The position numbers and the translations under genes were made by a program. Shown here piece after piece: positions 27,523 through 54,747 of a stretch of DNA of 64,000 bases. The notes under the pieces are model-generated. The model did not search any database and had not been told where the DNA came from. It was given only the letters and a program-made list of their open reading frames with translations. This stretch comes from Defluviicoccus sp. GTDB taxonomy: Bacteria > Pseudomonadota > Alphaproteobacteria > MPNO01. The stretch is from assembly GCA_028820505.1 (NCBI GenBank), contig JAPPIT010000142.1, positions 1-64,000 on the forward strand. Direction: 5' to 3'. The stretch's first letter is position 1. Every line of letters begins with the position of its first letter.

Positions 27523-27576
27523 CGCGGTTCCCTTTTCGCTCTTTGGCATTTGGGCTCTCCCCTGTGTTTGTAAGAA

Positions 27577-27585
27577 ACTTAAACT
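27577..27585. promoter_or_regulatory. Candidate operator, ACTTAAACT (copy A)
   Basis: ACTTAAACT lies in the AT-rich 105-base gap upstream of the ABC binding-protein gene. On the minus strand it sits inside the 17-base spacer between TTGAAG and TTACAA, a plausible promoter. The identical nonamer, with A at -2 and AT at +2/+3 also shared, occurs at 31365 ahead of the salicylyl-CoA hydroxylase gene. A shared repressor of the MarR or GntR type is possible; no regulator gene is adjacent. Confidence 0.4.
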
Positions 27586-27627
27586 TATATCTTCAAATAA
27601 TTGTTTTCACTGGATTTATTTGATTCC

Positions 27628-28842: not shown

Positions 28843-28919
28843 CGCCCAGTCCCCCACGGCTCCCGGTCCATTTTGCATAGCACGGGACCCGATGGCCACC
28901 AAGGGCGGCGCGGAACGTT

Positions 28920-37245: not shown

Positions 37246-37249
37246 CGCT

Positions 37250-38173: not shown

Positions 38174-38220
38174 ACGAAGAGCTGGATAGGCCGGTTACGA
38201 AATTCGCGCGGGCGGAAAAC

Positions 38221-38244
38221 GGGCGGGGCTAGCGCGCCCCGCCC
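38221..38244 (-). terminator. Hairpin between binding protein and LivH, system 2
   Basis: GGGCGGGGC (38221 to 38229) and GCCCCGCCC (38236 to 38244) form a 9-base GC-only stem with a 6-base loop. It stands 14 bases after the binding-protein stop on the minus strand. No T-run follows, so it may be a partial terminator or an mRNA 3'-end stabiliser that allows more binding protein than permease to be made. Confidence 0.5.
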
Positions 38245-38257
38245 CGGATTTCCGCGC

Positions 38258-39599: not shown

Positions 39600-39854
39600 A
39601 TGACCGTCACAACCCTGACCAGCCGCGAACTCAACCAGGACCTCGCGCGGGCGAAACGAGCGTCCCGGTCGGGACCGGTGTTCATCACCGACCGGGGAAA
39701 GCCCGCGCATGTTCTGCTCAGCATCGACGACTATCGGCGGCTCGCGGGACAGAACCGCAGCCTCGCGGACTCCTTGTCCATGGCGGGGCTCGCCGAAATC
39801 GACCTCGACCCGGTGCGCGTCCGAATCGATAGTCGTCCGGTCGATCTTTCCTGA
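39600..39854 (+). CDS. Phd/YefM family antitoxin
   Basis: An 84-residue antitoxin. The N-terminal DNA-binding half reads MTVTTLTSRELNQDLARAKRASRSGPVFITDRGKPAHVLLSIDDYRRL, the standard Phd/YefM pattern; the C-terminal tail (about 55 to 84) would wrap the toxin and block it. Its stop overlaps the toxin start by one base (TGATG), ensuring coupled synthesis. Probably autoregulated through the inverted repeat upstream. Confidence 0.93.
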   Translation: MTVTTLTSRELNQDLARAKRASRSGPVFITDRGKPAHVLLSIDDYRRLAGQNRSLADSLSMAGLAEIDLDPVRVRIDSRPVDLS

Positions 39855-40276
39855 TGTTCCTGTTGGACACGAACGTCGTCTCCGAACTGCGAAAGGTCGG
39901 CGACGGCAGGGCCGATGCGCGCGTCGTCGCGTGGATTTCGCGCCACGACGCGGCAGGGTTCTATATCTCCGCGGTGACGCTGATGGAGTTGGAGATCGGG
40001 ATTCTCCGCGTCGAGAGGCGCGACGGGGTGCAGGGGGAACTGCTGCGGCGCTGGATGGATCGGCACGTCGTGCCCGAGTTTCGGGAAAGAACGCTGCCGG
40101 TGGATTCCGCCGTGGCCCTTAAATGTGCCCGGCTGCATGTCCCCGATCCCCGATCCGAGCGGCACGCCCTGATCTCCGCCACGGCCCTGGTACACGGAAT
40201 GACGGTCGTCACAGGCAACCTGTCCGATTTCGAGGCAACGGGCGTTGCGGCCATCGACCCCTGGACCGAGATGTGA
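39854..40276 (+). CDS. vapC: PIN domain toxin, VapC-type
   Basis: A 140-residue PIN-domain ribonuclease toxin. The acidic metal-binding residues are visible: MFLLDTNVVSEL (Asp at residue 5), the Glu in VTLMELEIG near 46, DSAVALKCARLH near 94, and the C-terminal VTGNLSDFE near 119 to 127. All four acidic positions are kept, so it should be active. Partnered with the Phd-type antitoxin by a one-base overlap. The type II module stands between the Liv system 2 operon and the Rieske gene. Confidence 0.93.
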   Translation: MFLLDTNVVSELRKVGDGRADARVVAWISRHDAAGFYISAVTLMELEIGILRVERRDGVQGELLRRWMDRHVVPEFRERTLPVDSAVALKCARLHVPDPRSERHALISATALVHGMTVVTGNLSDFEATGVAAIDPWTEM

Positions 40277-40298: not shown

Positions 40299-41402
40299 CT
40301 ATTCGGCTGCCGCTCTGTCCCCTGCGACAGGCATGCGCGCCTCGTCCTCCACCATCCTTCGCCAGGCCTCGATCGACACGTCGGGACGGAAGAGCGGCGC
40401 CGGGTGGCTGTCCCCCATCAGCGGCACCACCGAGAGGTCCTGGTTGTTGAAGTTGTAATGGTGGACCCAGAGGATGTAGGTCCAGTAGCGCAGCCACCAG
40501 AGGACCCGGCGCCAGCCGTTCGTCCAGGCGACCGCGAAGACGAGGTAGTGGTAGCGGCCGCGCTCGATCGGCGTGTACCACTCGTAATGCGTCCAGTTGG
40601 AGCGCCCCGGCTGGCGCACCCGGAGGTTGGCCGGCAGGCGGATCGACACCGCGTGCTCGTTCGAGCCCTGCGCCACCCTCTTCTGCCGGCGCTGCCAGAA
40701 ATTGAAGCGCGGCCAGCGGCCGAGCCCGGGATAGTCGTCGTCCTCGTGCACCGAATGCTGGTAGCGGCTGAGCCAGCGGTCGTTCTCGCCGCGCACGATC
40801 TCGGTCTCGTTCCAGCCTGCCATGCGGCGGAAGAACACCCACCATGAACTGCGGTGCAGCATCTTGCCGTGCGATTCGTCGAAGCCGTTCTCGGCGGCGT
40901 GGCGCCAGTCGCCCCGGGCCTGGCGGTAAAGCGCGTAGATTCTGGCGTCGGGGCGCAGAAGCTCGTCCGGAATGTCGTCCTCCACCGGAACCGGCGTCCC
41001 CTCCCCCATCCACACCCAGACCATGCCGCAGCGTTCCTCGACCGGATAGCTGCGCGCCCGCGCCTTGCCCTTGATGGGCGAGTCCGGCCCGTCGGTCAGC
41101 GCGGCGACGAGACTTCCGTCCGCGAGATCGAAGGTCCACCCGTGATAGATGCAGGTGACCGTGCCGGGAAACTCGCATTTGCCCGCCGAGAGCGGGATCC
41201 CGCGGTGCGGGCAGCGGTCCTCCAGCGCATACGCCCTGCCCGCGTGGCGGACGAAGACGAGATCGCGGCCCAGGAGCCGCCACGCCTTGGGCTTCCTGCC
41301 CAGCTTCGAGGACGGCATGGCGGGGTGCCAGTATTCCGGCAGTCCTTCCGCCGCCGCGGCGTAGCGCTCCCAGCGCCCGATGGCTTCCGTCGAAGCGCTC
41401 AT
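40299..41402 (-). CDS. Rieske non-haem iron oxygenase, large subunit
   Basis: A 367-residue ring-hydroxylating oxygenase. The Rieske cluster ligands are in CPHRGIPLSAGKC and CIYHGWTFDLADGS (about residues 62 to 98; C-x-H and C-x2-H). The mononuclear iron site is suggested by ENGFDESHGKMLHRSSW near residues 167 to 183 (His-His plus a later Asp). The C-terminal part is unusually rich in Trp/Tyr/His. No ferredoxin or reductase gene is nearby. Its ATG overlaps the stop of the M20-like gene by 4 bases (ATGA). The relatives are monooxygenase-type, such as demethylases and hydroxylases; the substrate is unknown. Confidence 0.88.
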   Translation of the reverse strand: MSASTEAIGRWERYAAAAEGLPEYWHPAMPSSKLGRKPKAWRLLGRDLVFVRHAGRAYALEDRCPHRGIPLSAGKCEFPGTVTCIYHGWTFDLADGSLVAALTDGPDSPIKGKARARSYPVEERCGMVWVWMGEGTPVPVEDDIPDELLRPDARIYALYRQARGDWRHAAENGFDESHGKMLHRSSWWVFFRRMAGWNETEIVRGENDRWLSRYQHSVHEDDDYPGLGRWPRFNFWQRRQKRVAQGSNEHAVSIRLPANLRVRQPGRSNWTHYEWYTPIERGRYHYLVFAVAWTNGWRRVLWWLRYWTYILWVHHYNFNNQDLSVVPLMGDSHPAPLFRPDVSIEAWRRMVEDEARMPVAGDRAAAE

Positions 41403-42739
41403 AACCCAACCTCTGCCCTCGACCGCGTGCAGGTGTCAACGATCGTGTAGATCAGGCATCGCGCGAAGCGCCGCATGCCGGCCGTCTCGACCAGTCCCAT
41501 CGTGTGGCGCGGCCGCTCGGCGGACGCCGTCATGACCGCGGGCAGGCCGAACCGCGCGGTCGGGATCCCGGCGGCGCGGAGGATCACCGCCTCGGTCTGG
41601 CCGCTGGTCTCCAGGAACGGCGCGTGGGGCCTGCCCTCGGTGTCCTCGAACCCCCGGATCGCCGACTGGATGATCCAGTTCTCCGGGTCGGTGCCGCGGC
41701 CGGGTATTTCGAGGAGGGTATCGCAGGTCGTCTCCAGCCCCTCATGCGCGCCGGCGATTTCGGCGAGCGCCGCCTCCAGCTCCCGCCCCGCCTCTGCGGG
41801 CGTCGTGCGGGGGCTTATGCGCATGTCGACATAGAGGTCGCAGGCCGCCGGCACCATCGAGGGCTTGTAGGTCCAGCCGCCCTGGATCGCGCCGACCGCG
41901 CCCTGCGGGGCGACCAGCCCGTCGGTGTGGCGGCGGGCATATTCGTCGAACCAGGCTTCGAGGCGGGTGACGATATGAGCCGCGTCGGCGATCGGGTTGC
42001 GGTAGGCCAGGAAGTGCTTGCGCCCGACATAGGTCTGGACGCCGCGCACCCGCACCCGGAACCAGCAGAGCCCGACCTCCTCCCACGCCACCGCGTAGCC
42101 GGGCTTGGCGATCAGCGCGAAATCGGGCGCCGGCCCGCGTTCCAGCATGTGCCGGCAGCCGCGCCCGTGGCCGACAGCGGGCCGGTCGTCGCCGGGGCGC
42201 GGACCGGCGGGCGCGCCGCCCGCGCCGAAGGCGACTGTCAGGCCGCCGGAAAGCTCCACTCCAGTCGAAAGAATGGAACGTATTGCACTGATAATACTGA
42301 CTATATGGGCCTTCGGATTGTCGGCGCTGAGCCCGGTTACCGTACCCTCGCCGACGATCGCCCTGGGGATCATGTGATCGGGCAGCCTGTCGCCGACCCA
42401 CGGCACCTCGTCGTCGGCGCGGCCCGTAAACGGGCTGTCGAGCGGCGCGAACAGCATCAGTCCCGGGCCGCTGCCCGTGCCTTCCAGCCGCCCGATCGCG
42501 TTCGCCGAGCGGGAGTCGAGCGCCTGCACCTCGGCATCGAGTCCGATTTCGGCCATCGTGTCGGCGAGCAGGTCGGCGATGACGCGCTCCTCGCCGAACG
42601 GGCTCGGCGTCTCCACCAGCCGCACCAGCAGGTCCTGCATCCACCGTTCGTCGAGCGACGCGGCGCCGCGCTCGACGGCATCGCGGCGCGCGGCATCGAG
42701 CGGAAGGGCCACGGTTTCGACCGATTGCGGTGCCGACAT
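41399..42739 (-). CDS. M20 peptidase-like protein with degenerate metal site
   Basis: About 446 residues from ATG 42739 (MSAPQSVETVALP, with GGGGGGCG upstream); the frame extends to 42970, but the extension is arginine-rich. The two-domain M20/ArgE-DapE layout is recognisable (ERWMQDLLVRLVETPSPFGEE at about 31 to 51; dimerisation domain about 215 to 320). The zinc ligands look lost: motif H-x-D is P-L-D (FAPLDSPF), the Glu-Glu pair is GAGGAPAG, and D-N-K-G is DNPKAH. It may bind rather than hydrolyse, or act without metal. It is cotranscribed with the Rieske gene. Confidence 0.75.
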   Translation of the reverse strand: MSAPQSVETVALPLDAARRDAVERGAASLDERWMQDLLVRLVETPSPFGEERVIADLLADTMAEIGLDAEVQALDSRSANAIGRLEGTGSGPGLMLFAPLDSPFTGRADDEVPWVGDRLPDHMIPRAIVGEGTVTGLSADNPKAHIVSIISAIRSILSTGVELSGGLTVAFGAGGAPAGPRPGDDRPAVGHGRGCRHMLERGPAPDFALIAKPGYAVAWEEVGLCWFRVRVRGVQTYVGRKHFLAYRNPIADAAHIVTRLEAWFDEYARRHTDGLVAPQGAVGAIQGGWTYKPSMVPAACDLYVDMRISPRTTPAEAGRELEAALAEIAGAHEGLETTCDTLLEIPGRGTDPENWIIQSAIRGFEDTEGRPHAPFLETSGQTEAVILRAAGIPTARFGLPAVMTASAERPRHTMGLVETAGMRRFARCLIYTIVDTCTRSRAEVGL

Positions 42740-42863
42740 GGCGTTCGCCCCCCAAGGGTCGGCTCGAGTCTGCAAGAAACGACGCAAGCGTACAAACGCG
42801 CCGTCCGTTGTCATGCCGATCCGGCCTCGTGTAGGTTCGCGGCGATCGTCGAAAGGGTCGGCT

Positions 42864-43043
42864 ATGGAGAAGGATGCGGAGGCGTTCGTCGACCGCGCCG
42901 CGGCGGTGCTCGGGGTCGGGATCGATCCCGATCTGCGTCCCGCGGTCGTCGCCAACTTCGCGCATTTCATCGCGCTGATGGAGCGCGTGGAGGGTTTCGA
43001 GCCGCCCGAGTCCCTCGACCCGCCCGCGGTCTACCGGCCTTGA
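42864..43043 (+). CDS. AtzG/HpxX-like small subunit (DUF4089)
   Basis: A 59-residue protein, MEKDAEAFVDRAAAVLGVGIDPDLRPAVVANFAHFIALMERVEGFEPPE, which fits DUF4089. In characterised systems (AtzG with AtzE in cyanuric acid degradation, HpxX with HpxY) this small helical protein binds and activates the amidase encoded next to it. Here the amidase starts in a 4-base overlap (TTGA) with its stop. ATG 42864 has an AAAGGG site. It begins a long plus-strand gene series. It is easily missed because of its size. Confidence 0.85.
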   Translation: MEKDAEAFVDRAAAVLGVGIDPDLRPAVVANFAHFIALMERVEGFEPPESLDPPAVYRP

Positions 43044-44356
43044 GGGGGACCGCGGAAACCGCCGTTTCGGCGGCGCTGGAAGCCATCGGGCGCGAGAACC
43101 CGCGGATCAACGCCTTCGCCGACGTTCTGGGCGGGGAAGCGATCGCCCATGCGCAAGGGCTCGACCGCGAGGGCTCAACGGCGGGACCGCTCGCCGGCCG
43201 GCCCTTCGCAGCCAAGGACCTGTTCGATATCGCCGGGCGCCCGACCCGCGCGGGATCGCGAATCCGCGCCGACGCCGCGCCCGCGGCGGAGGACGCGACG
43301 GCCGTCGCGCGGCTGAAGACGGCCGGTGCGATCCTCGTCGGCCTGACCCACATGGACGAGTTCGCCTACGGCTTCACCGGCGAGAACGCGCATTACGGCG
43401 CGGTGCGCAACCCGCGCGATTCCGAGCGCATCGCCGGCGGCTCGTCGAGCGGTTCGGGCGCCGCCGTCGCCGCCGGGCTGGTGCCGTTCGCGCTCGGCTC
43501 GGACACCAACGGCTCGGTGCGGGTACCGGCGGCGCTCTGCGGCATATACGGGTTCAAGCCGACCTACGGGCGGGTCTCGCGGGCCGGCGTCGCGCCGCTC
43601 GCCTGGAGCTTCGATCATGTCGGCGTGCTCGCCGCGACGCTGGAGGACACCGCCGCCGCGCTCGACGCGATCCAGGGGCCTGACGCGCGCGATCCGGCGG
43701 CGGACCCGGACGAGCCCGATCCGCTCGCGCCGCATCTCGGCGCCGGCGTCGCAGGCCTGCGCATCGCCGTCGCCGGGGGCCACTTCGCGACCGGGGGAAT
43801 CCCGGAGGTCTTCGCCGCCGTCCGGCGCGTCGCCGAATGTCTCGGCTCCGGCCGCGAGGTGGAGATTCCGGACAGCGGCCGGGCGGGACCGGCGGCGCTG
43901 CTGATCACCTCGGCCGAGGCGGCGACGCTCCATCTCGACGAGATCCGCACGCGCGACGCCGAGTTCGACCGCTTCACCCGCGCGCGCTGGGTCGCGGCGA
44001 CGATGATCCCGCACGCCTGGGTGGCGAGGGCGCAGCAGTTCCGGCGGCGCTACCGGGAGACCGTGCAGGCCGCGTTCGAAGCCGTCGACATACTGATTAC
44101 GCCGACGACGCCGTTCCTTGCGGCGAAGATCGGCCAGTCGCAGATCGAGATCGGCGGCGAGACGCTTCCGGTCCGGGGCACGCTCGGGCGGTTTACCGCG
44201 CCGTTCTCCTTCGTCGGCTGTCCGGCCTTGTCGGTGCCGGTGCCGGGCGAAGGGCCGCTCCCCCTCGGCGTCCAGCTCGTGGCGGCGCCGGGCAATGACG
44301 GGTATCTGTTGCGCGCGGCGTCGAAGCTGCGCGACGAAGGGGCGGTGCGCGGGTGA
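43040..44356 (+). CDS. AtzE-type amidase (amidase signature family)
   Basis: About 438 residues. The Ser-cisSer-Lys catalytic triad is present: Lys in FAAKDLFDIAG (about residue 58), Ser in GGSSSGSGAAVAAG (about 135) and Ser in GSDTNGSVRVPAALCG (about 159). The start is TTG 43040, in a TTGA overlap with the DUF4089 gene; no ATG is near. By the company of DUF4089 it belongs with AtzE/HpxY, enzymes that split carbamoyl-type C-N bonds (1-carboxybiuret, oxalurate). Its stop overlaps the GTG of the malonyl-CoA decarboxylase gene, hinting that its product may feed malonate chemistry. That last link is inference. Confidence 0.9.
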   Translation: MRGTAETAVSAALEAIGRENPRINAFADVLGGEAIAHAQGLDREGSTAGPLAGRPFAAKDLFDIAGRPTRAGSRIRADAAPAAEDATAVARLKTAGAILVGLTHMDEFAYGFTGENAHYGAVRNPRDSERIAGGSSSGSGAAVAAGLVPFALGSDTNGSVRVPAALCGIYGFKPTYGRVSRAGVAPLAWSFDHVGVLAATLEDTAAALDAIQGPDARDPAADPDEPDPLAPHLGAGVAGLRIAVAGGHFATGGIPEVFAAVRRVAECLGSGREVEIPDSGRAGPAALLITSAEAATLHLDEIRTRDAEFDRFTRARWVAATMIPHAWVARAQQFRRRYRETVQAAFEAVDILITPTTPFLAAKIGQSQIEIGGETLPVRGTLGRFTAPFSFVGCPALSVPVPGEGPLPLGVQLVAAPGNDGYLLRAASKLRDEGAVRG

Positions 44357-45747
44357 GCGAGAACCTTTTGCAGCGGACGTTTCAGCGCGTCCTCGGACAG
44401 TGGCGGGACATCGCGTCGGGCGACGACCGGGCGCCGCTTTCCCCCGATCTTCCCGCACGCGACGCCGACCGGGTGCGCAAGCAGATGCGCGCCTGCCTGG
44501 AGGGCCGCGGCGGCGAGGTCTCGGCGCGCGGCCGCGCCGCCGCGCTCGGCCGGGGCTATCTGTCTCTGACCGACGAGGGGCGGGCGCGGTTCCTGCGCAT
44601 CCTCGCGACCGAGTTCGACACCGACCGCCAGGCCGTTACAGCCGCCGCGGCGGGTCTCGACGAGCTCGACGACTGGGGCGGGCGCAAGCGGCGCGAACGC
44701 CAGCTGCGCGCCGCGCTGGAGCCGCCCAGGCTCCGCCTGCTGACCCAGTTCAACGCGCTGCCGGACGGGGTCAAGTTCCTCGTCGACATGCGCGCGACCC
44801 TGCTCGGCCTCGCCGCGCAAGACGAGCAGTTCGCCGACCTCGAGGCCGACCTCAAGTCGCTGCTCGCCAACTGGTTCGACGTGGGCTTCCTCGAACTCCG
44901 CCGGATCACCTGGGACACCCCGGCGGCGATCATCGAGAAGCTGATCGAATACGAGGCGGTGCACGAGATCTCCGACTGGGACGACATGAAGTCCCGGCTC
45001 GGCACCGACCGCCGCTGCTACGCCTATTTCCATCCCCGCATGCCGGACGAGCCGCTGATCTTCGTCGAGGTCGCGCTGACCGAAGGCATCGCCGACAACA
45101 TCCAGGCCCTGCTCGCGCCGCACGGCGAGCCGGAGGCGGACGACGCCGACACGGCGATCTTCTACTCCATCTCGAACTGCCAGCGGGGGCTCGACGGGAT
45201 CGGCTTCGGCGGTTTCCTGATCAAGCGCGTCGTCGACCAGCTCTCGGCGGAGATCAGGAGCATCGACACCTTCGCCACGCTCTCGCCCATCCCCGGTTTC
45301 CGGCGCTGGCTCGAAGGGCATCTCGGCGGCGAGCCCGGAGAACTGCTCACGCGCGGCGAGAGACGGGCGCTCGACCCGTTCCATGTCGAGGGCGACGACG
45401 AAAAGCGTCTCGCCACGCTGCTGGCCCAACCCGGGTGGCACCGGGAGGAGGCGCTCGCGAAGGCGCTCGCCGCCCCCCTCACCCGCCTCTGCGCGCAATA
45501 CCTCGCGCGCGAGAAGAGAGAGTCGGGGCGCGCGATCGATCCCGTCGCCCATTTTCATCTCTCGAACGGGGCGCGCATGGAGCGGGTGAACTGGCTGGCC
45601 GACACCTCGCCAAAGGGATTCGCCCAGTCCTGCGGGCTGATGATCAACTACCTTTACGAGGTCGACCACATCGCCGGAAACCACGAATCCTACACCGGCG
45701 CCGGCGAAATCCCCGCCTCGTCGCGCTTCCGCGCACTGCTGCGGTAG
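44353..45747 (+). CDS. Malonyl-CoA decarboxylase
   Basis: A 464-residue enzyme of the MLYCD family converting malonyl-CoA to acetyl-CoA and CO2. The N-terminal helical domain is followed by the acetyltransferase-like catalytic domain, with IFYSISNCQRGLDGIGFGGFLIK near residues 273 to 295 (conserved Ser) and VAHFHLSNGARMERVNWLAD near 398 to 417 (catalytic His). The start GTG overlaps the amidase stop by 4 bases. No malonyl-CoA synthetase (MatB) or malonate carrier is obvious nearby, so it may act on malonyl-CoA from the pathway encoded around it. Single domain and full length. Confidence 0.95.
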   Translation: MSENLLQRTFQRVLGQWRDIASGDDRAPLSPDLPARDADRVRKQMRACLEGRGGEVSARGRAAALGRGYLSLTDEGRARFLRILATEFDTDRQAVTAAAAGLDELDDWGGRKRRERQLRAALEPPRLRLLTQFNALPDGVKFLVDMRATLLGLAAQDEQFADLEADLKSLLANWFDVGFLELRRITWDTPAAIIEKLIEYEAVHEISDWDDMKSRLGTDRRCYAYFHPRMPDEPLIFVEVALTEGIADNIQALLAPHGEPEADDADTAIFYSISNCQRGLDGIGFGGFLIKRVVDQLSAEIRSIDTFATLSPIPGFRRWLEGHLGGEPGELLTRGERRALDPFHVEGDDEKRLATLLAQPGWHREEALAKALAAPLTRLCAQYLAREKRESGRAIDPVAHFHLSNGARMERVNWLADTSPKGFAQSCGLMINYLYEVDHIAGNHESYTGAGEIPASSRFRALLR

Positions 45748-45776
45748 CGCGATTTCATTCCCGATGGAATCCCGGC

Positions 45777-45886
45777 GACGCGTCCCTCGATACGGCCCTT
45801 CGGGCCTACTCGGGATGAGGGACTCTTTCACGCATCCCCTCGCCCTGAATAGCCGCGAAGCGGCGTATCGAGGGGCGGGACGCGTC
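45777..45886. repeat. Structured palindromic repeat, copy 2
   Basis: About 110 bases bounded by the inverted pair GACGCGTCCC (45777 to 45786) and GGGACGCGTC (45877 to 45886). Inside are CCTCGATACGG and CGTATCGAGG arms, CTACTCGGGATGAGG opposite CCTGAATAG, and two hairpins (GGCCC-TTC-GGGCC and GCCGC-GAA-GCGGC). The same family occurs at 26117 and 62659. It fills the gap between the malonyl-CoA decarboxylase and the molybdenum hydroxylase gene. Reading it as protein gives a spurious C-terminal tail on an overlapping frame. Confidence 0.9.
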
Positions 45887-45897
45887 AACCGGGGCAC

Positions 45898-48288
45898 GTG
45901 GTGACCGGACGGCCCGCACCCGACCCGGCGAGCGCGAGCCCGCGCCTCGTCGGCGCCCGCGTCACCCGGCGCGAGGATCGCCGGCTGCTGCGCGGGCTGG
46001 GCGACTTCGTGGACGACCGGCGGCTGCACGGGCTTCTCCACGTCGCCTTCCGACGCTCCGACGTCGCGCACGGGCGCCTCAACGGGATCGACGCCGAAGA
46101 AGCGCGCGCCATGCCGGGCGTGGCGGCCGTGTTCGACGCCGAAGACCTTGCCGGGACCGTGCGGCCGATCCGGGCGACCTCGCGCATGTCGGACTACTAC
46201 CCGACGCCGCTCTGGCCCCTCGTTCCCGACATCGTGCGTTACGCGGGCGAGCCGGTCGCCGCGGTGGTCGCCGAAAGCCGCTATGCCGCCGAGGACGCGG
46301 CCGACCGCATCGTGCTCGACATCGAGCCGCTCGCCGGCGAGGCCGATCCGGAACGGGCGCTGGCCCCGGACGCGCCGGCTATCCACGACGAAGCCGGCTC
46401 GAACGTACTCGCCGCCCGAGAGTTCGCGCGCGGCGACGTGGACGATGCGATGCGCTTCGCTGCGGTCCGGGTCGGGGGACGCTTCCGGGTGCATCGCAAG
46501 ACGCCGATGGCGCTGGAGCCGCGCGGCGCGGTCGCGAGCTACGACCGGCGGACCCGGGTGCTCGACCTCTGCGCGACCACCCAGGTGCCGGGGATCGTGC
46601 GCGACGCGCTGGCCGAGATCCTGGACCTCCCGGGGAGCCGCATCCGCGTGTCGACGCCCGACGTAGGCGGGGGTTTCGGCGCCAAGACCGCGCTCTACGC
46701 CGAGGACGTCTGCCTCGCCGCGATCGCGCTGAAGCTCGGCCGGCCGGTCAAGTGGTTCGGCGACCGCCGCGAGGATCTGCGGGCAACGACGCAGGCGTTC
46801 GACGAAATCCTCGAGACCGCGCTCGGCCTCGACGGGGACGGAAGGGTCGTCGCGCTCGATGCCGATGCGATGTGCGATGCGGGCTCCTATTCGGTCTATC
46901 CCTGGACCGCCTGCATCGAGCCGGTCCAGGTGGTGAGCTTCCTGCCCGGCCCCTACCGCGTCGGCAACTACCGGGCGCGGGCGCGCGCCGTGGCGACGCC
47001 CAAGCCGGCCGGCGGACCCTATCGCGGCGTCGGCCGGCCGATCTCGACCTTCGTCATGGAGCGGATGATGGACATGGCGGCGCGCGAGCTCTGCCTCGAC
47101 CCGGTCGAGATTCGCCGCCGCAACATGATCGCGGATGACGAGTTCCCCTACCGGACGGCGTCCGGCATCGTCTGGGACCGTTCGAGCTTCCTCGACTGCC
47201 TGGAGACCGCCTGCCGGGCGATCGACTACGAAGGCTTGCGCGCCGGACAGGCGGAAGCGCGCGCGGAAGGCCGCCTCGTCGGCGTCGGGGTCGCCTCCTA
47301 CGCCGAGCTCACCGGGCTCGGCTCGCGCATCTCGGCCGCCCCGGGAATGCCGGTCAACACGGGGACGGAGACCGCCACCGTCGCGGTCGACGCGACCGGC
47401 GCGGTGACCGCGACCTTCGGCGTCCCGTCGCAGGGACAGGGGACGGAGACGACGCTGAGTCAGATCGTCGCCGACGAGCTCGGCGTGCATATCGACGATA
47501 TCGAGGTCATCGTCGGCGACAGCGCGGCGCTCGGCCACATGACCGGCACCTATGCCAGCCGAGGGGCGGTGCTGGGCGGCGGCGCGGCGATCCTCGCGGC
47601 CCGCGGCGCACGCGAGAAGATCGTTCGCTGCGCCGCGCATCTGCTCGAGGCCGCCGAGACCGACATCGAGATCGCGGCGGGCGACATACGTGTCGCCGGC
47701 ACCGACCGGTCGATGAGCCTCAGGGAGCTCGCCCGCGCGGTCTATTCGGACATGGGCCGCGTGCCGAAGCCGATCCGGGACGAGATCGGCAATCTGGAGG
47801 CGACCCGGGTATACGACCCGTTCACCGCCACCGCGACGTCGGCGACCCATATCGCGGCGGTCGAGATCGACCGCGAGACCTTCGGCGTCGCGGTGACCGG
47901 CTACGTCGCGGCGGAGGATTGCGGGCGGATCATCAACCCGATGATCGCCGACGGCCAGGCGCATGGCGGCATCGCCCAGGGGATCGGCGCGGCGCTGATG
48001 GAGGAGGTGGTCTACGACGCGGGCGGGCAACTGCTGACCGCCACGCTGGCCGACTACGTGGTCCCGGGCTCGTGCGACGTGCCGCGGATGGGGGTGACGC
48101 ATCTCGAAGCCGAGCCGCCGGATACGCTCGGCGGGTTCCGCGGCCTGGGCGAAGGCGGCACCATCGGCGCCGTCGCCGCAATCGCCAACGCGCTCGCCGA
48201 CGCGCTCTCCCCGCTCGGCGTCGAGGTCAGGGAGCTTCCGCTCACGCCGGCGCGGATTCACGCGCTGATCGAGGAGGCGGGGCGGTGA
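45898..48288 (+). CDS. Molybdenum hydroxylase large subunit (xanthine dehydrogenase family)
   Basis: A 796-residue molybdopterin-binding subunit. The small N-terminal a/b hammerhead (GLGDFVDDRRLHGLLHVAFRRSDVAHGRL) is followed by the Mo-binding domains; DVGGGFGAKTALYAEDV (about residues 258 to 274), GGPYRGVGRP (about 370) and the C-terminal GFRGLGEGGTIGAVAAIANAL, with the catalytic Glu of GEGG, are intact. Such enzymes hydroxylate N-heterocycles, aldehydes or CO with water. The usual FAD and [2Fe-2S] subunits are absent on either side, so it is an orphan here. Two adjacent GTG codons (45898, 45901) can start it. Its stop overlaps the TauD gene by 4 bases. Confidence 0.92.
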   Translation: MVTGRPAPDPASASPRLVGARVTRREDRRLLRGLGDFVDDRRLHGLLHVAFRRSDVAHGRLNGIDAEEARAMPGVAAVFDAEDLAGTVRPIRATSRMSDYYPTPLWPLVPDIVRYAGEPVAAVVAESRYAAEDAADRIVLDIEPLAGEADPERALAPDAPAIHDEAGSNVLAAREFARGDVDDAMRFAAVRVGGRFRVHRKTPMALEPRGAVASYDRRTRVLDLCATTQVPGIVRDALAEILDLPGSRIRVSTPDVGGGFGAKTALYAEDVCLAAIALKLGRPVKWFGDRREDLRATTQAFDEILETALGLDGDGRVVALDADAMCDAGSYSVYPWTACIEPVQVVSFLPGPYRVGNYRARARAVATPKPAGGPYRGVGRPISTFVMERMMDMAARELCLDPVEIRRRNMIADDEFPYRTASGIVWDRSSFLDCLETACRAIDYEGLRAGQAEARAEGRLVGVGVASYAELTGLGSRISAAPGMPVNTGTETATVAVDATGAVTATFGVPSQGQGTETTLSQIVADELGVHIDDIEVIVGDSAALGHMTGTYASRGAVLGGGAAILAARGAREKIVRCAAHLLEAAETDIEIAAGDIRVAGTDRSMSLRELARAVYSDMGRVPKPIRDEIGNLEATRVYDPFTATATSATHIAAVEIDRETFGVAVTGYVAAEDCGRIINPMIADGQAHGGIAQGIGAALMEEVVYDAGGQLLTATLADYVVPGSCDVPRMGVTHLEAEPPDTLGGFRGLGEGGTIGAVAAIANALADALSPLGVEVRELPLTPARIHALIEEAGR

Positions 48289-49124
48289 CGGCAGAAGCGA
48301 CGACTTTCAAGATCATCCCGCTCTCCCTCGCCCTCGGCGCGGAGATCCGGGGGCTCGACCTGTCGGGGCCGCTGGACGGGGAGACCGTCGCGGCCCTGCG
48401 CGCCGCGTGGCTCGAACATCTCGTGCTTCTGTTCCGTGGGCAGGCGCTCGACGTCGAGGCCCAAATCCGTTTCGCGGGCTATTTCGGCGAACCGAGCGAA
48501 CCCCGTTCGGGCGGCGGACGCGATCTCGACCCGCGTATCCTCCTCGTCACCAATATCCGCGAGGACGGCAGGCCGATCGGCGTCCTGCCCGACGGCGAGC
48601 TCCAGTTCCATTCCGATTCGGCGTTCCTCGAGCGCCCGCTGATGGCGACCGTGCTCTACGCCGTCGAGGTCCCCGGCCGCGGCGGCGAAACGCTGTTCGC
48701 CAACGCGTACCGGGCCTGGGAGACGCTTGACGCCGCCCAGAAACGACGGCTGGAGGGCCGCCATGCCCTCAACGTCTACGACTACGCGACTCAGGTGAAG
48801 GCGGGGACGCTGGACCGCGCGGGGCTGCCGCAGGCGGTTCATCCCGTCGTCCGCACGCACCCAGAGACCGGCCGCAAGGCGCTCTACGTCAACCGGCTGA
48901 TGACCGAGGAGATCCTGGACGTTCCGCCCGCGGACAGCGCGGCGCTGCTGGACACGCTGTTCGCTGCCATCGAGCGCCCGGACCGCGTCTACAAGCATTC
49001 CTGGCGCAAAAGCGACCTCGTGATCTGGGACAACCGCTGCGCCCAGCACGCGCGGCGCGACTTCCCGTCCGACCGGACCCGGCTGATGCGCCGCGTCGGC
49101 ATCGTCGGCGACGTGCCGGTGTGA
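48285..49124 (+). CDS. TauD/TfdA family Fe(II)/2-oxoglutarate dioxygenase
   Basis: A 279-residue oxygenase. The iron-binding HxD motif is QFHSDSAFLERP near residues 108 to 119 and the distal His is in NRCAQHARRDFP near 247 to 258, followed by the 2-oxoglutarate-binding Arg in RTRLMRRVGI. The start is GTG 48285, overlapping the previous stop, with GAGGAGG upstream. Family members hydroxylate taurine, 2,4-D and many carboxylates. Being coupled to a molybdenum hydroxylase subunit and followed by flavin oxygenases suggests one multi-step oxidation pathway. Confidence 0.93.
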   Translation: MTAEATTFKIIPLSLALGAEIRGLDLSGPLDGETVAALRAAWLEHLVLLFRGQALDVEAQIRFAGYFGEPSEPRSGGGRDLDPRILLVTNIREDGRPIGVLPDGELQFHSDSAFLERPLMATVLYAVEVPGRGGETLFANAYRAWETLDAAQKRRLEGRHALNVYDYATQVKAGTLDRAGLPQAVHPVVRTHPETGRKALYVNRLMTEEILDVPPADSAALLDTLFAAIERPDRVYKHSWRKSDLVIWDNRCAQHARRDFPSDRTRLMRRVGIVGDVPV

Positions 49125-49176
49125 CGCGTTACGTCCCGTTCCGGCAGAATTCCGCCTCCCCAGGCAAGGACGCGCC

Positions 49177-50118
49177 ATGACCCTCAAGCTGGGCTATCTC
49201 CTTCCCACCCGCCAGCGCGTGATGGAGGGCGAGCACCACACCGACCGCATTCTGGAGCTCGCCGACCTCGCCGAGGAAATCGGGCTCGACTCGGTCTGGA
49301 TCGGCGATTCGGTGATCGCCAAGCCGCGCCACGACCCGATCGTGCTGCTCGCCGCGATCGCCGCGCGCACCGAGCGGATCGCGCTCGGGACGGCGGTGCT
49401 GGTGCCGATGCTGAGGAACCCGGTCCTCCTCGCACACCAGCTCGCGACGCTCGACCGGATCGCGTACGGCCGCTTCGTCCTCGGCATCGGCCTGGCGCGC
49501 GACGTGCCAGCGATCCGCGCCGAGTTCGAGGCCGTGGGCGTGCCCTTCGAGAAGCGCGTCGGGCGGATGCTGGAAGGGCTCCGCCTGTGCCGCGCGCTGT
49601 GGTCGAGGGGATCGGTCGACTGGGACGGGCGCTGGAAGCTCGAAGGCGCGACGCTCGCTCCCGAGCCCTTCACCCCGGGCGGGCCGAAGATCTGGGGCGG
49701 CGGCGGCGTGCCGGCCGCGCTCAGGCGGTGTGCGCGCAATTTCGACGGCTGGTTCCCGTCGGGCCGCGGCGGCGGCGCCGAATGGGGTGCGGACTGGAGG
49801 TCCCTCTGCGCGTATGCGGAGGAAGCCAGCCGCGACCCGGCGGAGATCGCCGGCGCCGCCTATGTCACGGTGGCGATCGACGACGACCCGAAAGCGGCCG
49901 AGGCGGCGCTCGATTCCTACCTCGTCCGCTACTACAACCTGCCCGCCGAACGCATCCGGGCGGAGGAATACGTTTTCGCCGGCGACCGGGCGGCGGTGGC
50001 GGGCTGGATCGCCGGCTTCGTCGAGGCCGGCTGCGACCATCTCTGCGTCCGCGTCACGGGTTCCGACGACGCGCGCCAGATGGAAGAACTCGCCGAGCTT
50101 CGCGACCGGATTGGGTGA
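49177..50118 (+). CDS. LLM class flavin-dependent oxidoreductase, duplicate A
   Basis: A 313-residue luciferase-like TIM-barrel protein (MTLKLGYLLPTRQRVMEG, GLDSVWIGDSVIAKPRHDP, RIALGTAVLVPMLRNP). It would use reduced flavin or F420 as cosubstrate. It is aligned without gaps to the next gene, with about 263 of 313 identical residues by hand count, so the pair is a recent tandem duplication. It follows the TauD gene by 52 bases. Substrate unknown. Both copies retain the conserved GGPKIWGGGGVPAALRR segment near residues 167 to 183. Confidence 0.93.
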   Translation: MTLKLGYLLPTRQRVMEGEHHTDRILELADLAEEIGLDSVWIGDSVIAKPRHDPIVLLAAIAARTERIALGTAVLVPMLRNPVLLAHQLATLDRIAYGRFVLGIGLARDVPAIRAEFEAVGVPFEKRVGRMLEGLRLCRALWSRGSVDWDGRWKLEGATLAPEPFTPGGPKIWGGGGVPAALRRCARNFDGWFPSGRGGGAEWGADWRSLCAYAEEASRDPAEIAGAAYVTVAIDDDPKAAEAALDSYLVRYYNLPAERIRAEEYVFAGDRAAVAGWIAGFVEAGCDHLCVRVTGSDDARQMEELAELRDRIG

Positions 50119-50180
50119 GGGCGTTTGCCGCCGCGGGAGCGTTCCGGCAAGTTGCGCCTTTCTCCGGTAAGGTGCCTCCA

Positions 50181-51122
50181 ATGACCCTCAAGCTCGGCTA
50201 TCTCCTCCCCACCCGCGAGCGCGTGATGGTAGGGGTGCACGACACCGACCGCATTCTCGAACTCGGCGACGTGGCCGAGCAGGTCGGGCTCGACTCGGTC
50301 TGGATCGGCGATTCGCTGATCGCCAAGCCGCGGCACGACCCGATCACGCTCCTGGCCGCCATCGCGGCACGCACGGAGCGGATCGCGCTGGGGACGGCGG
50401 TGCTGCTGCCGATGCTGAGGAACCCGACGCTGCTCGCCCATCAGCTGGCCACCCTCGACCGGATCTCGTGCGGGCGCTTCGTCCTCGGCGTCGGCACCGC
50501 GCGCGACGTGCCGGCGATCCGCGCCGAGTTCGAGGCGGCGGGCGTCCCGTTCGAGAAGCGCATCGGGCGGATGCTGGAGGGGCTCCGCCTGTGCCGCGCG
50601 CTGTGGTCCGGGGAACCGGTCGACTGGGACGGGCGCTGGAAGCTCGAGGCCGCGACGCTCGCGCCCGAGCCCTTCACCCCGGGCGGGCCGAAGATCTGGG
50701 GCGGCGGCGGCGTGCCGGCGGCGCTCAGGCGGTGCGCGCGCAATTTCGACGGCTGGTTCCCGTCGGGCCCCGGCGGGGGCGCCGAATGGGGCCGCAGCTG
50801 GCAGGCGCTCAAGGCGGACGCGAAGGAGGCGGGCCGCGATCCGGCGGAGATCGTGGGCGCGGCCTATGTGACGGTCGCGATAAACGACGACCCGGGGGTG
50901 GCCGAGGAAGAGCTCGATTCCTACCTTTCGCGTTACTACAACCTTCCGGCCGAACGCATCCGGGCCGAGCAATACGCCTTCGCCGGCGACCGGGCGGCGG
51001 TGGCTGGCTGGCTGGGCGGCTTCGTCGAGGCGGGCGCGAGCCATCTTTGCGTCCGCGTCACCGGCTCCGACGACGCGGCCCAAATGGAGGAACTCGCCCG
51101 GCTCGGCGAGAGCCTCGGCTGA
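50181..51122 (+). CDS. LLM class flavin-dependent oxidoreductase, duplicate B
   Basis: A 313-residue paralogue of the preceding gene, with the same length and no gaps. The start ATG 50181 is preceded by GGTAAGGTG. Differences cluster at residues about 195 to 245 (the part that usually lines the substrate entrance), while the N-terminal barrel and the segment about 140 to 190 are almost unchanged. The two might act as a heterodimer, as in luciferase-like pairs, or on related substrates. It lies 13 bases before the bicupin gene, so it is part of the same operon. Confidence 0.93.
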   Translation: MTLKLGYLLPTRERVMVGVHDTDRILELGDVAEQVGLDSVWIGDSLIAKPRHDPITLLAAIAARTERIALGTAVLLPMLRNPTLLAHQLATLDRISCGRFVLGVGTARDVPAIRAEFEAAGVPFEKRIGRMLEGLRLCRALWSGEPVDWDGRWKLEAATLAPEPFTPGGPKIWGGGGVPAALRRCARNFDGWFPSGPGGGAEWGRSWQALKADAKEAGRDPAEIVGAAYVTVAINDDPGVAEEELDSYLSRYYNLPAERIRAEQYAFAGDRAAVAGWLGGFVEAGASHLCVRVTGSDDAAQMEELARLGESLG

Positions 51123-51135
51123 GGGAGGACGGACC

Positions 51136-52317
51136 ATGGCGACGACGCTCCAGGGCGATCTCAAGCGCCAGAGCAACGACTACAACTGGGAAGAGGAGAT
51201 GGCGGCGCTGCACGAGCGCACGCAGGCGCTCGATCTTTACGAGTTCTGGTCGGTCGGCAAGGCGGGCGAGCACGAGGCGGTGCGCGACCTCGCCCGCTTC
51301 GACAGGGCGGTGCCGCATATCTGGAAATACCGCGACATATGGCCCTGCCTGGAGAAGGCCGGCGAGCTGATCGACATGAACGAGAGCGAGCGCCGTTCGC
51401 TGATCATGTGCAACCCGGCGCTCAAGGGGCTGATCGCCACCGTGACGACCATGTTCGCGGCCTACCGCATCAACAACCCGCACGAGATCGCGCCGGCCCA
51501 CCGGCACTCGCCGAACGCGATCCGCTTCGGCCTCACCGGGCATACCAACTTCACCGGGGTGGAGGGCGAGCCCATCACCTTCGGCCCGGGCGACCTCGTG
51601 CTCACCCCGCACGACACCTGGCACAATCACGGGAACGAGGGCGAAGGCGGGGCGGTCAATCTGAGCGTGCTCGACATGCCGCTGGTGAACGTGCTCAACG
51701 CCACCTATTTCGAGAGCGACTATTTCGAGGAGGACGAGCAGGGCCGGAGGATCCGCAAGGAAACACAGGACGCCCGCTTCCATCCCGAACATTCCCGGCG
51801 CACCTACGGCCAGGGCGGGCTGCTGCCGCGCAGCGTCTCGCACGACCGCGGCACCGGCAACGCATCGCCGATGTACGTCTATCGCTGGGAGGCGACGCGC
51901 GAGCTGCTGGAGAATTTGCGCGACCTCGAAGGCACCCCGTGGGACGGGGTCATGGTCGAATATGTCGACCCCACCACCGGGCGGGCGCCCTACGCCACGA
52001 TGACGTTCTTCGCCCAGATGCTGCGCTCCGGAGAGAAAACCCTGCCCTCGCGCCAGAACGCGAGCCTGATCTACACCGTGTTCGAAGGGCGCGGCCACTC
52101 CGTCGTCGACGGCAGGCGCTTCGACTGGGAGCCGTTCGACACGTTCTGCGTGCCCGGCGGCGAATGGGTCGAGCACGTCAACGGAAGCGAGCGGGACGAT
52201 GCGATCTTCTTCGTCTCTTCCGACGAGCCGGCGCTGAAGACACTCCACTTCTACAGCCGCCACGGCCGCACCGAATCGGGCGAGGAAACGCTGCTGGAAA
52301 CCTCGCGCCGGTTTTGA
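51136..52317 (+). CDS. Gentisate 1,2-dioxygenase-like bicupin
   Basis: A 393-residue double cupin. The first cupin carries APAHRHSPNAIRFGLTG (about residues 118 to 134) with the HxH iron ligands and a later His in TPHDTWHNHGNEG near 156 to 168. The second cupin (about 300 to 370) keeps the fold but not the metal set, as in gentisate dioxygenases. Such enzymes open the ring of gentisate, or of salicylate or 1-hydroxy-2-naphthoate in relatives. Maleylpyruvate isomerase and fumarylpyruvate hydrolase are not in the window. It ends the 42.8 to 52.3 kb plus-strand series. Confidence 0.9.
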   Translation: MATTLQGDLKRQSNDYNWEEEMAALHERTQALDLYEFWSVGKAGEHEAVRDLARFDRAVPHIWKYRDIWPCLEKAGELIDMNESERRSLIMCNPALKGLIATVTTMFAAYRINNPHEIAPAHRHSPNAIRFGLTGHTNFTGVEGEPITFGPGDLVLTPHDTWHNHGNEGEGGAVNLSVLDMPLVNVLNATYFESDYFEEDEQGRRIRKETQDARFHPEHSRRTYGQGGLLPRSVSHDRGTGNASPMYVYRWEATRELLENLRDLEGTPWDGVMVEYVDPTTGRAPYATMTFFAQMLRSGEKTLPSRQNASLIYTVFEGRGHSVVDGRRFDWEPFDTFCVPGGEWVEHVNGSERDDAIFFVSSDEPALKTLHFYSRHGRTESGEETLLETSRRF

Positions 52318-52429: not shown

Positions 52430-52798
52430 ATGAACGATGCCCCGTTGAGACCAGTCCAATGGGTGGGTTCGAGCAAGGCGGATCTGAAGCGGTTTCCGGA
52501 ACCCGTGCGGGCGCGCATGGGCTTTGCGATCTACGAGGCCCAGACGGGTCTTCGGCACCGCGATGCCAAGCCGCTCAAAGGCTTTGGCCCCGGCGTCCTC
52601 GAGGTTGTGGCGCGCCACGACGGAGACACTTTCAGAGCCGTATATACGGTCCGGTACGAGGCAGCGGTATACGTCCTCCACGCCTTTCAGAAGAAGGCGA
52701 AGCGCGGCGTCGTCACACCGAAATACGAGCTCGACCTGGTGCGGCGCCGGCTAAGGGCCACCGAGCGGCACTACCGGCGGACGCATGGCGGGGGCTAG
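52430..52798 (+). CDS. Gp49/HigB-like toxin of RelE superfamily
   Basis: A 122-residue protein of the phage-derived Gp49-like/HigB family. The pattern KADLKRFPEPVRARMGFAIYEAQTGLRHRDAKPLKGFGPGVLEVVARHDGDTFRAVYTVRYEAAVYVLHAFQKKAKRG is characteristic: the F-Q-K-K-A-K-R-G ending carries the basic catalytic residues of the RelE fold. Such toxins cleave mRNA at the ribosome. The antitoxin follows immediately, in the reversed toxin-first order typical of HigBA. Confidence 0.92.
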   Translation: MNDAPLRPVQWVGSSKADLKRFPEPVRARMGFAIYEAQTGLRHRDAKPLKGFGPGVLEVVARHDGDTFRAVYTVRYEAAVYVLHAFQKKAKRGVVTPKYELDLVRRRLRATERHYRRTHGGG

Positions 52799-52802
52799 CA
52801 CC

Positions 52803-53141
52803 ATGAACGGATCCGACCCCGCCGTCGAACGCGGCAGCGGCAACGTCTTCGCAGACCTCGACCTTCCGGACGCCGACGCGCATCGGCTGAAGGCGGAGAT
52901 CGTGAGCCGCATCGACGCGATCGTCCGGCAGCGGGGCATCACGCAAACCGACGCCGCCCGGCTGCTGGGCCTGTCCCAGCCCGACGTGTCGCGGCTGCTG
53001 CGGGGCGATTTTCGCGACTATTCGCTCGAACGCCTGTTGCGGCTGCTGACCAGGCTCGGGCGCGATGTCGATATCGTCATCCGGCAACGGCGCTCGACGA
53101 CCGGCGGAAGGCTGCGCATCGCCGCCTCGGAAACCGTCTGA
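52803..53141 (+). CDS. HigA-like XRE-type antitoxin
   Basis: About 112 residues with a helix-turn-helix (QTDAARLLGLSQPDVSRLLRGDFRDYSLERLLRLLTRLG, roughly residues 46 to 84), preceded by the family opening VERGSGNVFADLDLPDADAHRLKAEIV. ATG 52803, 4 bases after the toxin stop and behind GGGGG, gives this N terminus; ATG 52785 overlapping the toxin gene is the alternative. It should bind the toxin and repress its own operon. It is convergent with the MetE-like gene 7 bases away. Confidence 0.9.
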   Translation: MNGSDPAVERGSGNVFADLDLPDADAHRLKAEIVSRIDAIVRQRGITQTDAARLLGLSQPDVSRLLRGDFRDYSLERLLRLLTRLGRDVDIVIRQRRSTTGGRLRIAASETV

Positions 53142-53148: not shown

Positions 53149-54261
53149 TCACGCGCTGCCCCAGATCTCCGCCGCCGTCTCGGCCACCAGGGCGAGCTTG
53201 TCCCACTGGGCCTGCTCGCTGACCTCGTTGCCGACGGCCATGCTGGCGAAGCCGCATTGCGGGCTGAGGCAGAGATTCTCCATCGGCAGGTAGCGGGCCG
53301 CCTCGTCGACCCGGCGCTTGAGGTCGTCCTTCGACTCGAGCTCCGGGAACTTGGAACTCACCAGCCCCAGCACCACCATCTTCTCGCGCGGCGCGAAGCG
53401 GAGCGGTTCGAACCCGCCGGCGCGGTCGGTGTCCCACTCCATGAAGAACCCGTCGACCGGGACGCCGCCGAACAGGTCCTCGGCCACCGGCTCGTAGCCG
53501 CCCTCCGCGATCCACGAGCTCTTGAAGTTGCCCCGGCACATGTGGACGGTCACGGTCATGTCGTCCGGCCGGTCTTTCAACGTCTCGGCGATGCCGCGCG
53601 CGTAGATCCGGACGAGCTCCGCCGGGTCGTCGCCGCGCCCGTTCATCTGGTAGCGCACCTTCGGATCGCACAGCATGGCGAAAGTGGTGTCGTCGAGCTG
53701 GAGATAGCGGCAGCCCGCGTCGTGGAGCATCCGCACCTCGTCCCGGTAGGCGGCGTAGAGGTCCTCGCGGAATTCCTCGAGGTCGGGATAGACCTCGCGG
53801 TCGATCAGGGCGCGGCCGCTGCGGTGATAAGCGAGGCTGGGGGACGGGATGCAGAACTTGGGCGTCTCGCTCGTATGCGCTTTCAGGAAGCGGAAATGGT
53901 CGAGCATGACCCCGCCGGGGTTGCGTATCCGGCCCACGATCTCCAGCGAGGACACCCCCTGCCCGCCCCGGAAGGTCGGTCCCTGGTGCGGCGCCGTCTG
54001 CTCGATTCCGTCGAGGCCGCAGAGAAAATCGTAGTGCCAGGCCTCGCGCCGGAACTCCCCGTCGGTGACGCTCTTGAGGCCCGCCCCCTCCTGCCCGGCT
54101 ATGGCGTCGGCGATGCAGCGATCCTCGATCCCGGCGAGTTCCGCGGCCGACATCTCCCCCGCCGCCGCCTTCGCCCGCGCGGCGTGGAGTTCCGCCGGCC
54201 GCAGCAGGCTTCCGACATGGTCGGCCCGGAACGGGGGTCTGGTGGAATCGGCGAACGTCAT
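53149..54261 (-). CDS. MetE C-terminal-like methyltransferase (cobalamin-independent methionine synthase family)
   Basis: A 370-residue protein matching the catalytic half of cobalamin-independent methionine synthase. Zinc-ligand candidates are in TVTVHMCRGNF (His/Cys, about residues 237 to 247) and LSPQCGFAS (Cys, about 333 to 341); DGEFRREAWHYDFL is near residue 67. The full MetE has about 750 residues with an N-terminal half missing here, so this is the short stand-alone type, often annotated as 5-methyltetrahydropteroyltriglutamate--homocysteine methyltransferase but with an uncertain methyl donor. An Lrp-family gene 24 bases upstream on the same strand may control it. Confidence 0.88.
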   Translation of the reverse strand: MTFADSTRPPFRADHVGSLLRPAELHAARAKAAAGEMSAAELAGIEDRCIADAIAGQEGAGLKSVTDGEFRREAWHYDFLCGLDGIEQTAPHQGPTFRGGQGVSSLEIVGRIRNPGGVMLDHFRFLKAHTSETPKFCIPSPSLAYHRSGRALIDREVYPDLEEFREDLYAAYRDEVRMLHDAGCRYLQLDDTTFAMLCDPKVRYQMNGRGDDPAELVRIYARGIAETLKDRPDDMTVTVHMCRGNFKSSWIAEGGYEPVAEDLFGGVPVDGFFMEWDTDRAGGFEPLRFAPREKMVVLGLVSSKFPELESKDDLKRRVDEAARYLPMENLCLSPQCGFASMAVGNEVSEQAQWDKLALVAETAAEIWGSA

Positions 54262-54285: not shown

Positions 54286-54747
54286 TCAGATCGGCAGCGC
54301 CGTCGTGTCCTTGATGTCCTCCATCACGAAGCTCGCCGAGATGTCGGCGATCGGGACCTTCGCGATGAGGCGCTGGTAGAACCTGTCGTAGTCCCTGACG
54401 CTCGCCACCCGGAGACGCAGCACGTAGTCGATATCGCCGCTCATCCGGTGGGCGCCCTGGATCTCGGGCAGGGTGTGAACCGCCTCCTCGAACTTCTCGA
54501 GCCAGCCCTTCTCGTGCGCGTTGGTGCGGACGATCACGAAGACCGACAGCCCGAGGCCGACCGCCTCCGGGTCGACCAGGGCGACCCGCCTCCGGATCGC
54601 CCCGCGCTCCTCCATGCGCTTGACGCGGCGCCAGCACGCGTTGCGCGACAGGTTCGCCCGGCCGGCGAGATCGTCCATGCTGATCGACGCGTCCTCCTGC
54701 AGGCATCGCAGGAGCCTGAGGTCGATTTCGTCGAGAATCTCGATCAT
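54286..54747 (-). CDS. Lrp/AsnC family transcriptional regulator
   Basis: A 153-residue regulator. The N-terminal winged helix (LDEIDLRLLRCLQEDASISMDDLAGRANLSRNACWRRVKRMEERGAI) is followed by the RAM ligand-sensing domain (about residues 68 to 145; PEIQGAHRMSGDIDYVLRLRV). ATG 54747 was preferred to a TTG 6 codons earlier because it gives the standard start MIEILDEID; no ribosome site is visible. A perfect 15-base palindrome abuts the start, suggesting self-repression. Lrp proteins sense amino acids; the neighbouring MetE-like gene makes a methionine-related effector plausible. Confidence 0.93.
   Translation of the reverse strand: MIEILDEIDLRLLRCLQEDASISMDDLAGRANLSRNACWRRVKRMEERGAIRRRVALVDPEAVGLGLSVFVIVRTNAHEKGWLEKFEEAVHTLPEIQGAHRMSGDIDYVLRLRVASVRDYDRFYQRLIAKVPIADISASFVMEDIKDTTALPI

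Follow-up and report, generated by a model that had tools for sequence, protein, structure and literature searches.

The closest described relatives of the genes treated here are found in the car pathway of pCAR1, with its Rieske oxygenase CarAa, in 5-nitroanthranilate aminohydrolase of Bradyrhizobium (5NAA-A; PDB 5k8m-p), in AtzG-AtzE of the 1-carboxybiuret hydrolase type, in quinoline 2-oxidoreductase, and among the gentisate, salicylate, and 5-nitrosalicylate dioxygenases. These were compared with a ten-gene cluster (the island) in a 64,000-nucleotide stretch (the window) of contig JAPPIT010000142.1 from Defluviicoccus sp. (GCA_028820505.1). The genes named in an original prediction, made from the DNA letters and their translations, were all recovered at their positions by gene calls and family searches, and its judgement that the families are clear but the combination matches no recognisable pathway was right. 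Its gene list did not contain the M20-like gene at 41399-42739, between the Rieske gene and a divergent gap. This gene and the Rieske gene form a pair that is the most interesting lead of the island. The island contains the following features.

40299..41402, minus strand: Rieske oxygenase alpha subunit, CarAa-like (Pfam PF00355, PF11723; PDB; alignment; motifs)
41399..42739, minus strand: M20-fold relative of 5-nitroanthranilate aminohydrolase in which the canonical metal ligands are replaced
42740..42863, no strand: divergent intergenic region, 124 bp
42864..43043, plus strand: AtzG-like small subunit, 59 aa (Pfam PF13318; gene call)
43040..44356, plus strand: AtzE-family amidase, TTG start, K59 and Ser motifs intact (NF006631, TIGR02715; PDB 6c62)
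44353..45747, plus strand: malonyl-CoA decarboxylase, MCD (PF05292 and PF17408 above cut-off; PDB 4ksa)
45898..48288, plus strand: molybdenum hydroxylase large subunit, MoL (Pfam; PDB 1t3q_B; GEGG motif at 751)
48285..49124, plus strand: TauD/TfdA-family Fe(II)/2-oxoglutarate oxygenase (PF02668; PDB 6d1o; H109-S-D111, H255)
49177..50118, plus strand: LLM-class flavin/F420-type oxidoreductase, copy 1 (PF00296; TIGR03619 at 154 bits, under cut-off)
50181..51122, plus strand: LLM-class oxidoreductase, copy 2, 84% identical to copy 1
51136..52317, plus strand: gentisate/salicylate 1,2-dioxygenase-like bicupin (iron site HRH...H of the N-terminal cupin retained, that of the C-terminal cupin lost)

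As predicted, the genes are tightly packed and diverge from a common 124-base region. Two run leftward from this gap (M20-like, Rieske) and eight rightward (AtzG to the bicupin), and successive gaps from the Rieske gene to the bicupin measure -4, 124, -4, -4, 150, -4, 52, 62, and 13 bases. The 4-base overlaps are at the Rieske/M20, AtzG/AtzE, AtzE/MCD, and MoL/TauD joints. We read this arrangement, with a probability of about 0.55, as a layered catabolic island kept in a single genus of Defluviicoccus-like alphaproteobacteria associated with sponges, in which oxidative genes were added around an older aromatic core. Layer 1, the older core, would be the CarAa-like Rieske oxygenase and its metal-site-less M20-fold partner, divergent from AtzG-AtzE; in relatives, this core usually comes with a ring-cleaving dioxygenase of the LigB type. 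Layer 2, added in the genus, would comprise the gentisate-like bicupin, MCD (LigB-linked in a sister genus), MoL, TauD, and the duplicated LLM.

The Rieske-M20 pair

The Rieske protein agrees with CarAa in its Rieske and iron-site residues and in the homotrimeric-type domain PF11723, which scores above cut-off. The cluster site (C64-H66-C84-H87) and the iron site (H178/H183/D322) are intact and invariant (alignment, motifs), and the nearest solved relatives are CarAa and 2-oxoquinoline 8-monooxygenase (PDB). In contrast, identity to CarAa of pCAR1 is ~29%, and the island has no ferredoxin or reductase. To our knowledge, the car set includes no M20-like partner. A paralogous locus in one genus member (L098 6030-10785) has a carbazole-like layout of isochorismatase-like, M20-like, Rieske, alpha/beta-hydrolase, LigA-like, and LigB-like genes (names assigned by eye); the Rieske, alpha/beta-hydrolase, small LigA-like, and LigB-like genes there make up a car-like set.

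The M20-like protein has the fold and the dimerisation domain of M20 (PF07687 above cut-off). Its best match among solved structures is 5NAA-A (1.8e-41 with 7 sequences, 4.5e-44 with 25 sequences), which is also the best structural match of its AlphaFold2 model (pLDDT 90; TM ~0.8-0.9). The two proteins differ at the metal site: the M20 ligand positions are occupied by H, E, and E in 5NAA-A and by P, G, and K in the M20-like protein. Canonical ligands are replaced in all 36 aligned sequences (HxD by PxD, the bridging Asp by N141, EE by GG, and the Glu of EPT by K212), and the C-terminal ligand His of the fold is not conserved, in a part of the alignment that is less sure. Arg289 of 5NAA-A, located by comparing the R289A entry 5k8p with 5k8m, is not conserved either. 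Eight residues are invariant in the M20-like set (D101, N141, K143, K212, E220, E221, S379, and R396). This strict conservation argues for a function, which may or may not be catalytic, and an unusual metal site built from other residues is possible.

The M20 alignment was scanned against 84,980 species genomes, which yielded 49 loci, and the 36 with at least 42% identity were analysed. A usable M20 gene call was available for 35 loci, 33 of them from the scan set and two fetched earlier. A Rieske gene lies on the same strand within 1.8 kb of the M20-like gene in 33 of these 35 loci (31 of the 33 distinct loci, there being two duplicates), and one of the two loci that have no Rieske partner lies on a 5.8-kb contig. 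The pair spans Alpha-, Beta-, and Deltaproteobacteria and Actinobacteria, isolates included, and most loci have a LigB-like gene and alpha/beta-hydrolases nearby. A plasmid of Cupriavidus necator, found independently, brings together a Rieske gene, a reductase-like gene, an M20-like gene (36%; APID, SNPK, and GGMP at the motif positions), and an amidase. That plasmid stretch is unannotated in its record, and its reductase-like gene was judged by eye from the sequence, as was the one adjoining the Rhodococcus phenolicus locus. Searches for Rieske/M20/extradiol clusters, 8-hydroxycoumarin-type quinoline clusters, and sponge Defluviicoccus oxygenases, with subscription journals mostly outside their coverage, found no published account of a Rieske-M20 unit. 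We put the chances at about even that the M20-like protein founds an unrecognised family, in which the metal site is replaced by invariant residues and which is kept beside a CarAa-like Rieske enzyme across Proteobacteria and Actinobacteria. Its members would either convert the Rieske product in a metal-free reaction or serve as an essential partner protein.

The amidase and the other island genes

AtzG and AtzE resemble the 1-carboxybiuret hydrolase type in that both subunits are present and adjacent and AtzE scores above curated cut-offs (NF006631, 553 against 461 bits; TIGR02715, 539 against 426 bits). Its nearest solved structure is biuret hydrolase 6c62 (3.6e-118), and the substrate activity of the island's pair is putative. 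The locus differs from the described systems in that no other cyanuric acid pathway gene occurs in the cluster. MCD is typical of its family, with PF05292 (359 bits) and PF17408 (80 bits) both above cut-off and PDB 4ksa matched at 5e-93.

The best solved match of MoL is the large subunit of quinoline 2-oxidoreductase (1t3q_B, 6.8e-164). MoL belongs to the XDH/CoxL family, carries the Mo-site Glu in GEGG (751), and scores under every curated model; an assignment to aerobic CO dehydrogenase (CoxL) was rejected (TIGR02416, 489 against 991 bits). Unlike quinoline 2-oxidoreductase, it has no small or medium subunits in the cluster, whereas its homologue in another genome of the order (G018) is adjoined by small- and medium-subunit-like genes, judged from the start of their sequences. 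The TauD-family protein is nearest to the solved structure 6d1o (2.9e-42) and has the HxD...H residues (H109-S-D111, H255); it scored too low for a taurine dioxygenase (NF007104, 168 against 313 bits). The LLM genes are tandem duplicates, closest to F420-dependent oxidoreductases, and narrowly miss TIGR03619 (154 and 160 against 166.9 bits). The bicupin shares its two-cupin form and N-terminal HRH...H site with the gentisate, salicylate, and 5-nitrosalicylate dioxygenases and matches the gentisate family at 1e-66. Its N-terminal iron site is kept (H122-R-H124 and a WHNH motif), but the second cupin domain has lost its metal ligands and the score is about half of the family cut-off, so a true gentisate 1,2-dioxygenase was rejected (TIGR02272, 225 against 442 bits). 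The original prediction had counted six oxygen- or hydroxyl-inserting enzymes among these families. The families hold, but the count is overstated, as the LLM pair consists of duplicates nearest to F420-dependent oxidoreductases, putative oxygenases at most, and the Mo subunit stands without local partners.

Gene associations within and outside the genus

Outside the genus, a genome from another family of the order (G008) has LigB-like, Rieske (68%), and M20-like (63%) genes divergent from AtzG and AtzE (~60%), with the core proteins overall 59-68% identical to those of the island. AtzE there runs into the contig end, and contig C51 seems to open with its continuation (matching ends), after which come unrelated genes, with no MCD found. 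The same genome has TauD (50%) and LLM (53%) one gene apart. Homologues of MCD outside the genus are on other contigs; in the sister genus (G005), a LigB homologue (70%) lies next to a broken MCD. Six genomes of the order carry MoL homologues (61-63%) on other contigs, as most of them do LLM homologues (mostly 63-71%). The only telling neighbours of MoL orthologues are their own small and medium subunits (L192) and an acyl-CoA ligase (L187). The window encodes an acyl-CoA ligase at 57207-58727, whose homologue in G005 (71%) is directly beside the MoL homologue; it is a possible further member of a MoL module. Scattered homologues together with the retained core association indicate that, on the sequences compared, the island is composed of modules, in which the Rieske-M20 and AtzG-AtzE core stays linked and is usually accompanied by a ring-cleaving enzyme of the LigB type or by another amidase.

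Within the genus, the ten genes from Rieske to cupin (Rieske, M20-like, AtzG, AtzE, MCD, MoL, TauD, LLM, LLM, cupin) have the same order in all five genomes, with AtzG in the other genus genomes recognised by gene call. Other genes interrupt this order in one genus member (L040 3737-9029), where a TRAP transporter separates MoL from TauD, and TauD is in turn separated from LLM by a metal-dependent-hydrolase-like gene and its small partner (names by eye). One genus member, bin129, is from the sponge Aplysina aerophoba (PMC5649159) and was placed apart from the known Defluviicoccus clades I-IV in a later study (PMC9041414). The other genus genomes, metagenome-assembled genomes of Defluviicoccus sp., are probably sponge-derived as well, judging from their relatedness and isolate names.

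The island is bordered by the following features.

34829..39430, minus strand: branched-chain-type ATP-binding cassette (ABC) transporter, two ATPases, two permeases, and a periplasmic binding protein (Pfam; genus synteny, 89-99% identity)
39600..40276, plus strand: PhdYefM antitoxin and PIN toxin, left flank (Pfam; same place in 5/5 genus genomes)
52430..53141, plus strand: RelE(Gp49)-like/HigA-like toxin-antitoxin pair, right flank (Pfam; varies within the genus)
53149..54261, minus strand: MetE C-terminal-domain-like protein, adjoining the island (NF005085 above cut-off; in the three other genus loci read that far)
54286..54747, minus strand: Lrp/AsnC-type regulator, a candidate regulator (synteny in the three other genus loci read that far)

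Toxin-antitoxin modules are thus present on both flanks, as predicted. The transporter, which is likely the importer for the island, and the PhdYefM/PIN module adjoin the island in each of the other four genus genomes, to the extent that the loci cover them. The right-flank toxin was detected in one of these four; the site holds the same toxin in one species, and in the others it has another small gene or none. A second oxidative block occupies 16509-31322 of the window, with a UbiD-family decarboxylase, an LLM gene, a TAXI-TRAP binding protein, and a second branched-chain-type transporter (by eye), together with an HsaA-like flavin monooxygenase and a bifunctional salicylyl-CoA 5-hydroxylase (above cut-off). 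It is followed by a 3-hydroxybenzoate 6-monooxygenase-like gene at 31551-32801.

Readings of the island and their meaning

The layered reading is supported directly by gene content, conservation, the association of modules, and active-site residues that are intact or lost; the substrate, the reaction order, and a shared function of layer 2 are proposals that go further. A nitrogen-containing aromatic substrate is plausible for the core, given the amidase, the aminohydrolase relationship, and the distant carbazole- and quinoline-enzyme relatives. The neighbouring ABC transporter would import a nitrogen-containing aromatic or heteroaromatic acid, which the Rieske enzyme would hydroxylate (or O/N-demethylate). 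The M20-like protein would then bind or convert the product of this step, doing so without metal chemistry of the usual kind, and AtzE-AtzG would hydrolyse an amide or carbamoyl group. The bicupin may replace LigB in ring cleavage, which is a guess, and layer 2 may broaden the range of substrates instead of making up a single linear pathway.

Several observations weigh against this account. No ferredoxin or reductase gene for the Rieske enzyme lies within 34.8-54.7 kb, and no small or medium Mo-hydroxylase subunits ([2Fe-2S], FAD) are in the cluster. Cupin orthologues in three other genera (G005, G015, and G022) have no shared neighbours, which bears on the LigB-replacement step. Housekeeping or unrelated neighbours, such as dCTP deaminase and salicylyl-CoA hydroxylase, are as collinear in the genus as the island is. 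Because collinearity is general, genus synteny says little on shared function, and it was rejected as proof of one pathway.

A single N-heteroaromatic pathway had been proposed in the original prediction. A linear version that follows quinoline-degradation logic would have the Mo hydroxylase add oxygen beside the ring nitrogen, the Rieske enzyme hydroxylate the carbocycle, the M20-like protein open the lactam or exchange its nitrogen, the cupin open the ring, AtzE remove the amide nitrogen, and MCD finish a malonyl-CoA product. Tight packing, genus-wide conservation, and the identity of the nearest solved relatives (quinoline 2-oxidoreductase, CarAa, 2-oxoquinoline 8-monooxygenase, and 5-nitroanthranilate aminohydrolase) are in its favour, but these relatives are distant (~29% to the pCAR1 Rieske protein; MoL under every curated cut-off), the M20-like protein has none of the metal ligands kept by the aminohydrolase, and the Mo partner subunits are absent from the cluster. 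Scattered homologues were the outcome that the prediction itself had named as speaking against one pathway, and outside the genus the LLM, Mo subunit, cupin, and MCD homologues are on separate contigs, with only Rieske-M20-AtzG-AtzE and TauD-LLM staying together. For this reason the idea of one pathway is mostly unsupported and we consider it unlikely, while its suggestion of a nitrogen-containing aromatic substrate survives for the core.

Independent catabolic operons could also have come to lie side by side in an oxygenase-packed genome, with no common substrate. Family searches of the 5.49-Mb source genome (designated G000) gave 77 Rieske, 53 Mo-large-subunit, 49 LLM, 19 TauD, and 9 gentisate-dioxygenase-like matches, and this total of ~207 such oxidative genes in 5.5 Mb favours ordinary adjacency, as do the scattered homologues outside the genus and the other catabolic genes inserted into the island in one species. 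The same genome has 24 small-subunit [2Fe-2S] (Fer2_2) domains against its 53 Mo large-subunit matches, so about half of the large subunits appear without a local partner. The island is nevertheless the densest 12-kb stretch in the genome, with six matches from five families (next best non-overlapping stretches, four matches). Uniform random placement produced a maximum of at least six in 29 of 2000 trials and five families in 5 of 2000. This density is a moderate signal, because the null disregards operons and tandem duplication and the LLM duplicate is counted as a match. The 4-base overlaps at several joints and the persistence of the core association outside the genus also speak against mere adjacency, which we regard as improbable. 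A cyclic-ureide or oxidative pyrimidine pathway (barbiturate/ureidomalonate type) through the Mo hydroxylase, AtzE, and MCD, the prediction's other suggestion, is very improbable: AtzE is nearest to biuret hydrolase and MCD is present, but there is no barbiturase- or hydantoinase-like gene among the cluster's family matches, MoL is far under xanthine dehydrogenase cut-offs, and in other genomes the core is accompanied by genes for aromatic ring cleavage.

The layered reading turns a loose list of oxygenases into a testable unit: a Rieske enzyme paired with an M20 protein that has lost its metal site, often accompanied by a ring-cleaving dioxygenase and in some cases by an amidase. If this is confirmed, Rieske enzymes would gain a new kind of partner and a common hydrolase fold a new role, and the pair would provide a handle on what sponge-associated bacteria with ~200 oxygenase-type genes degrade.

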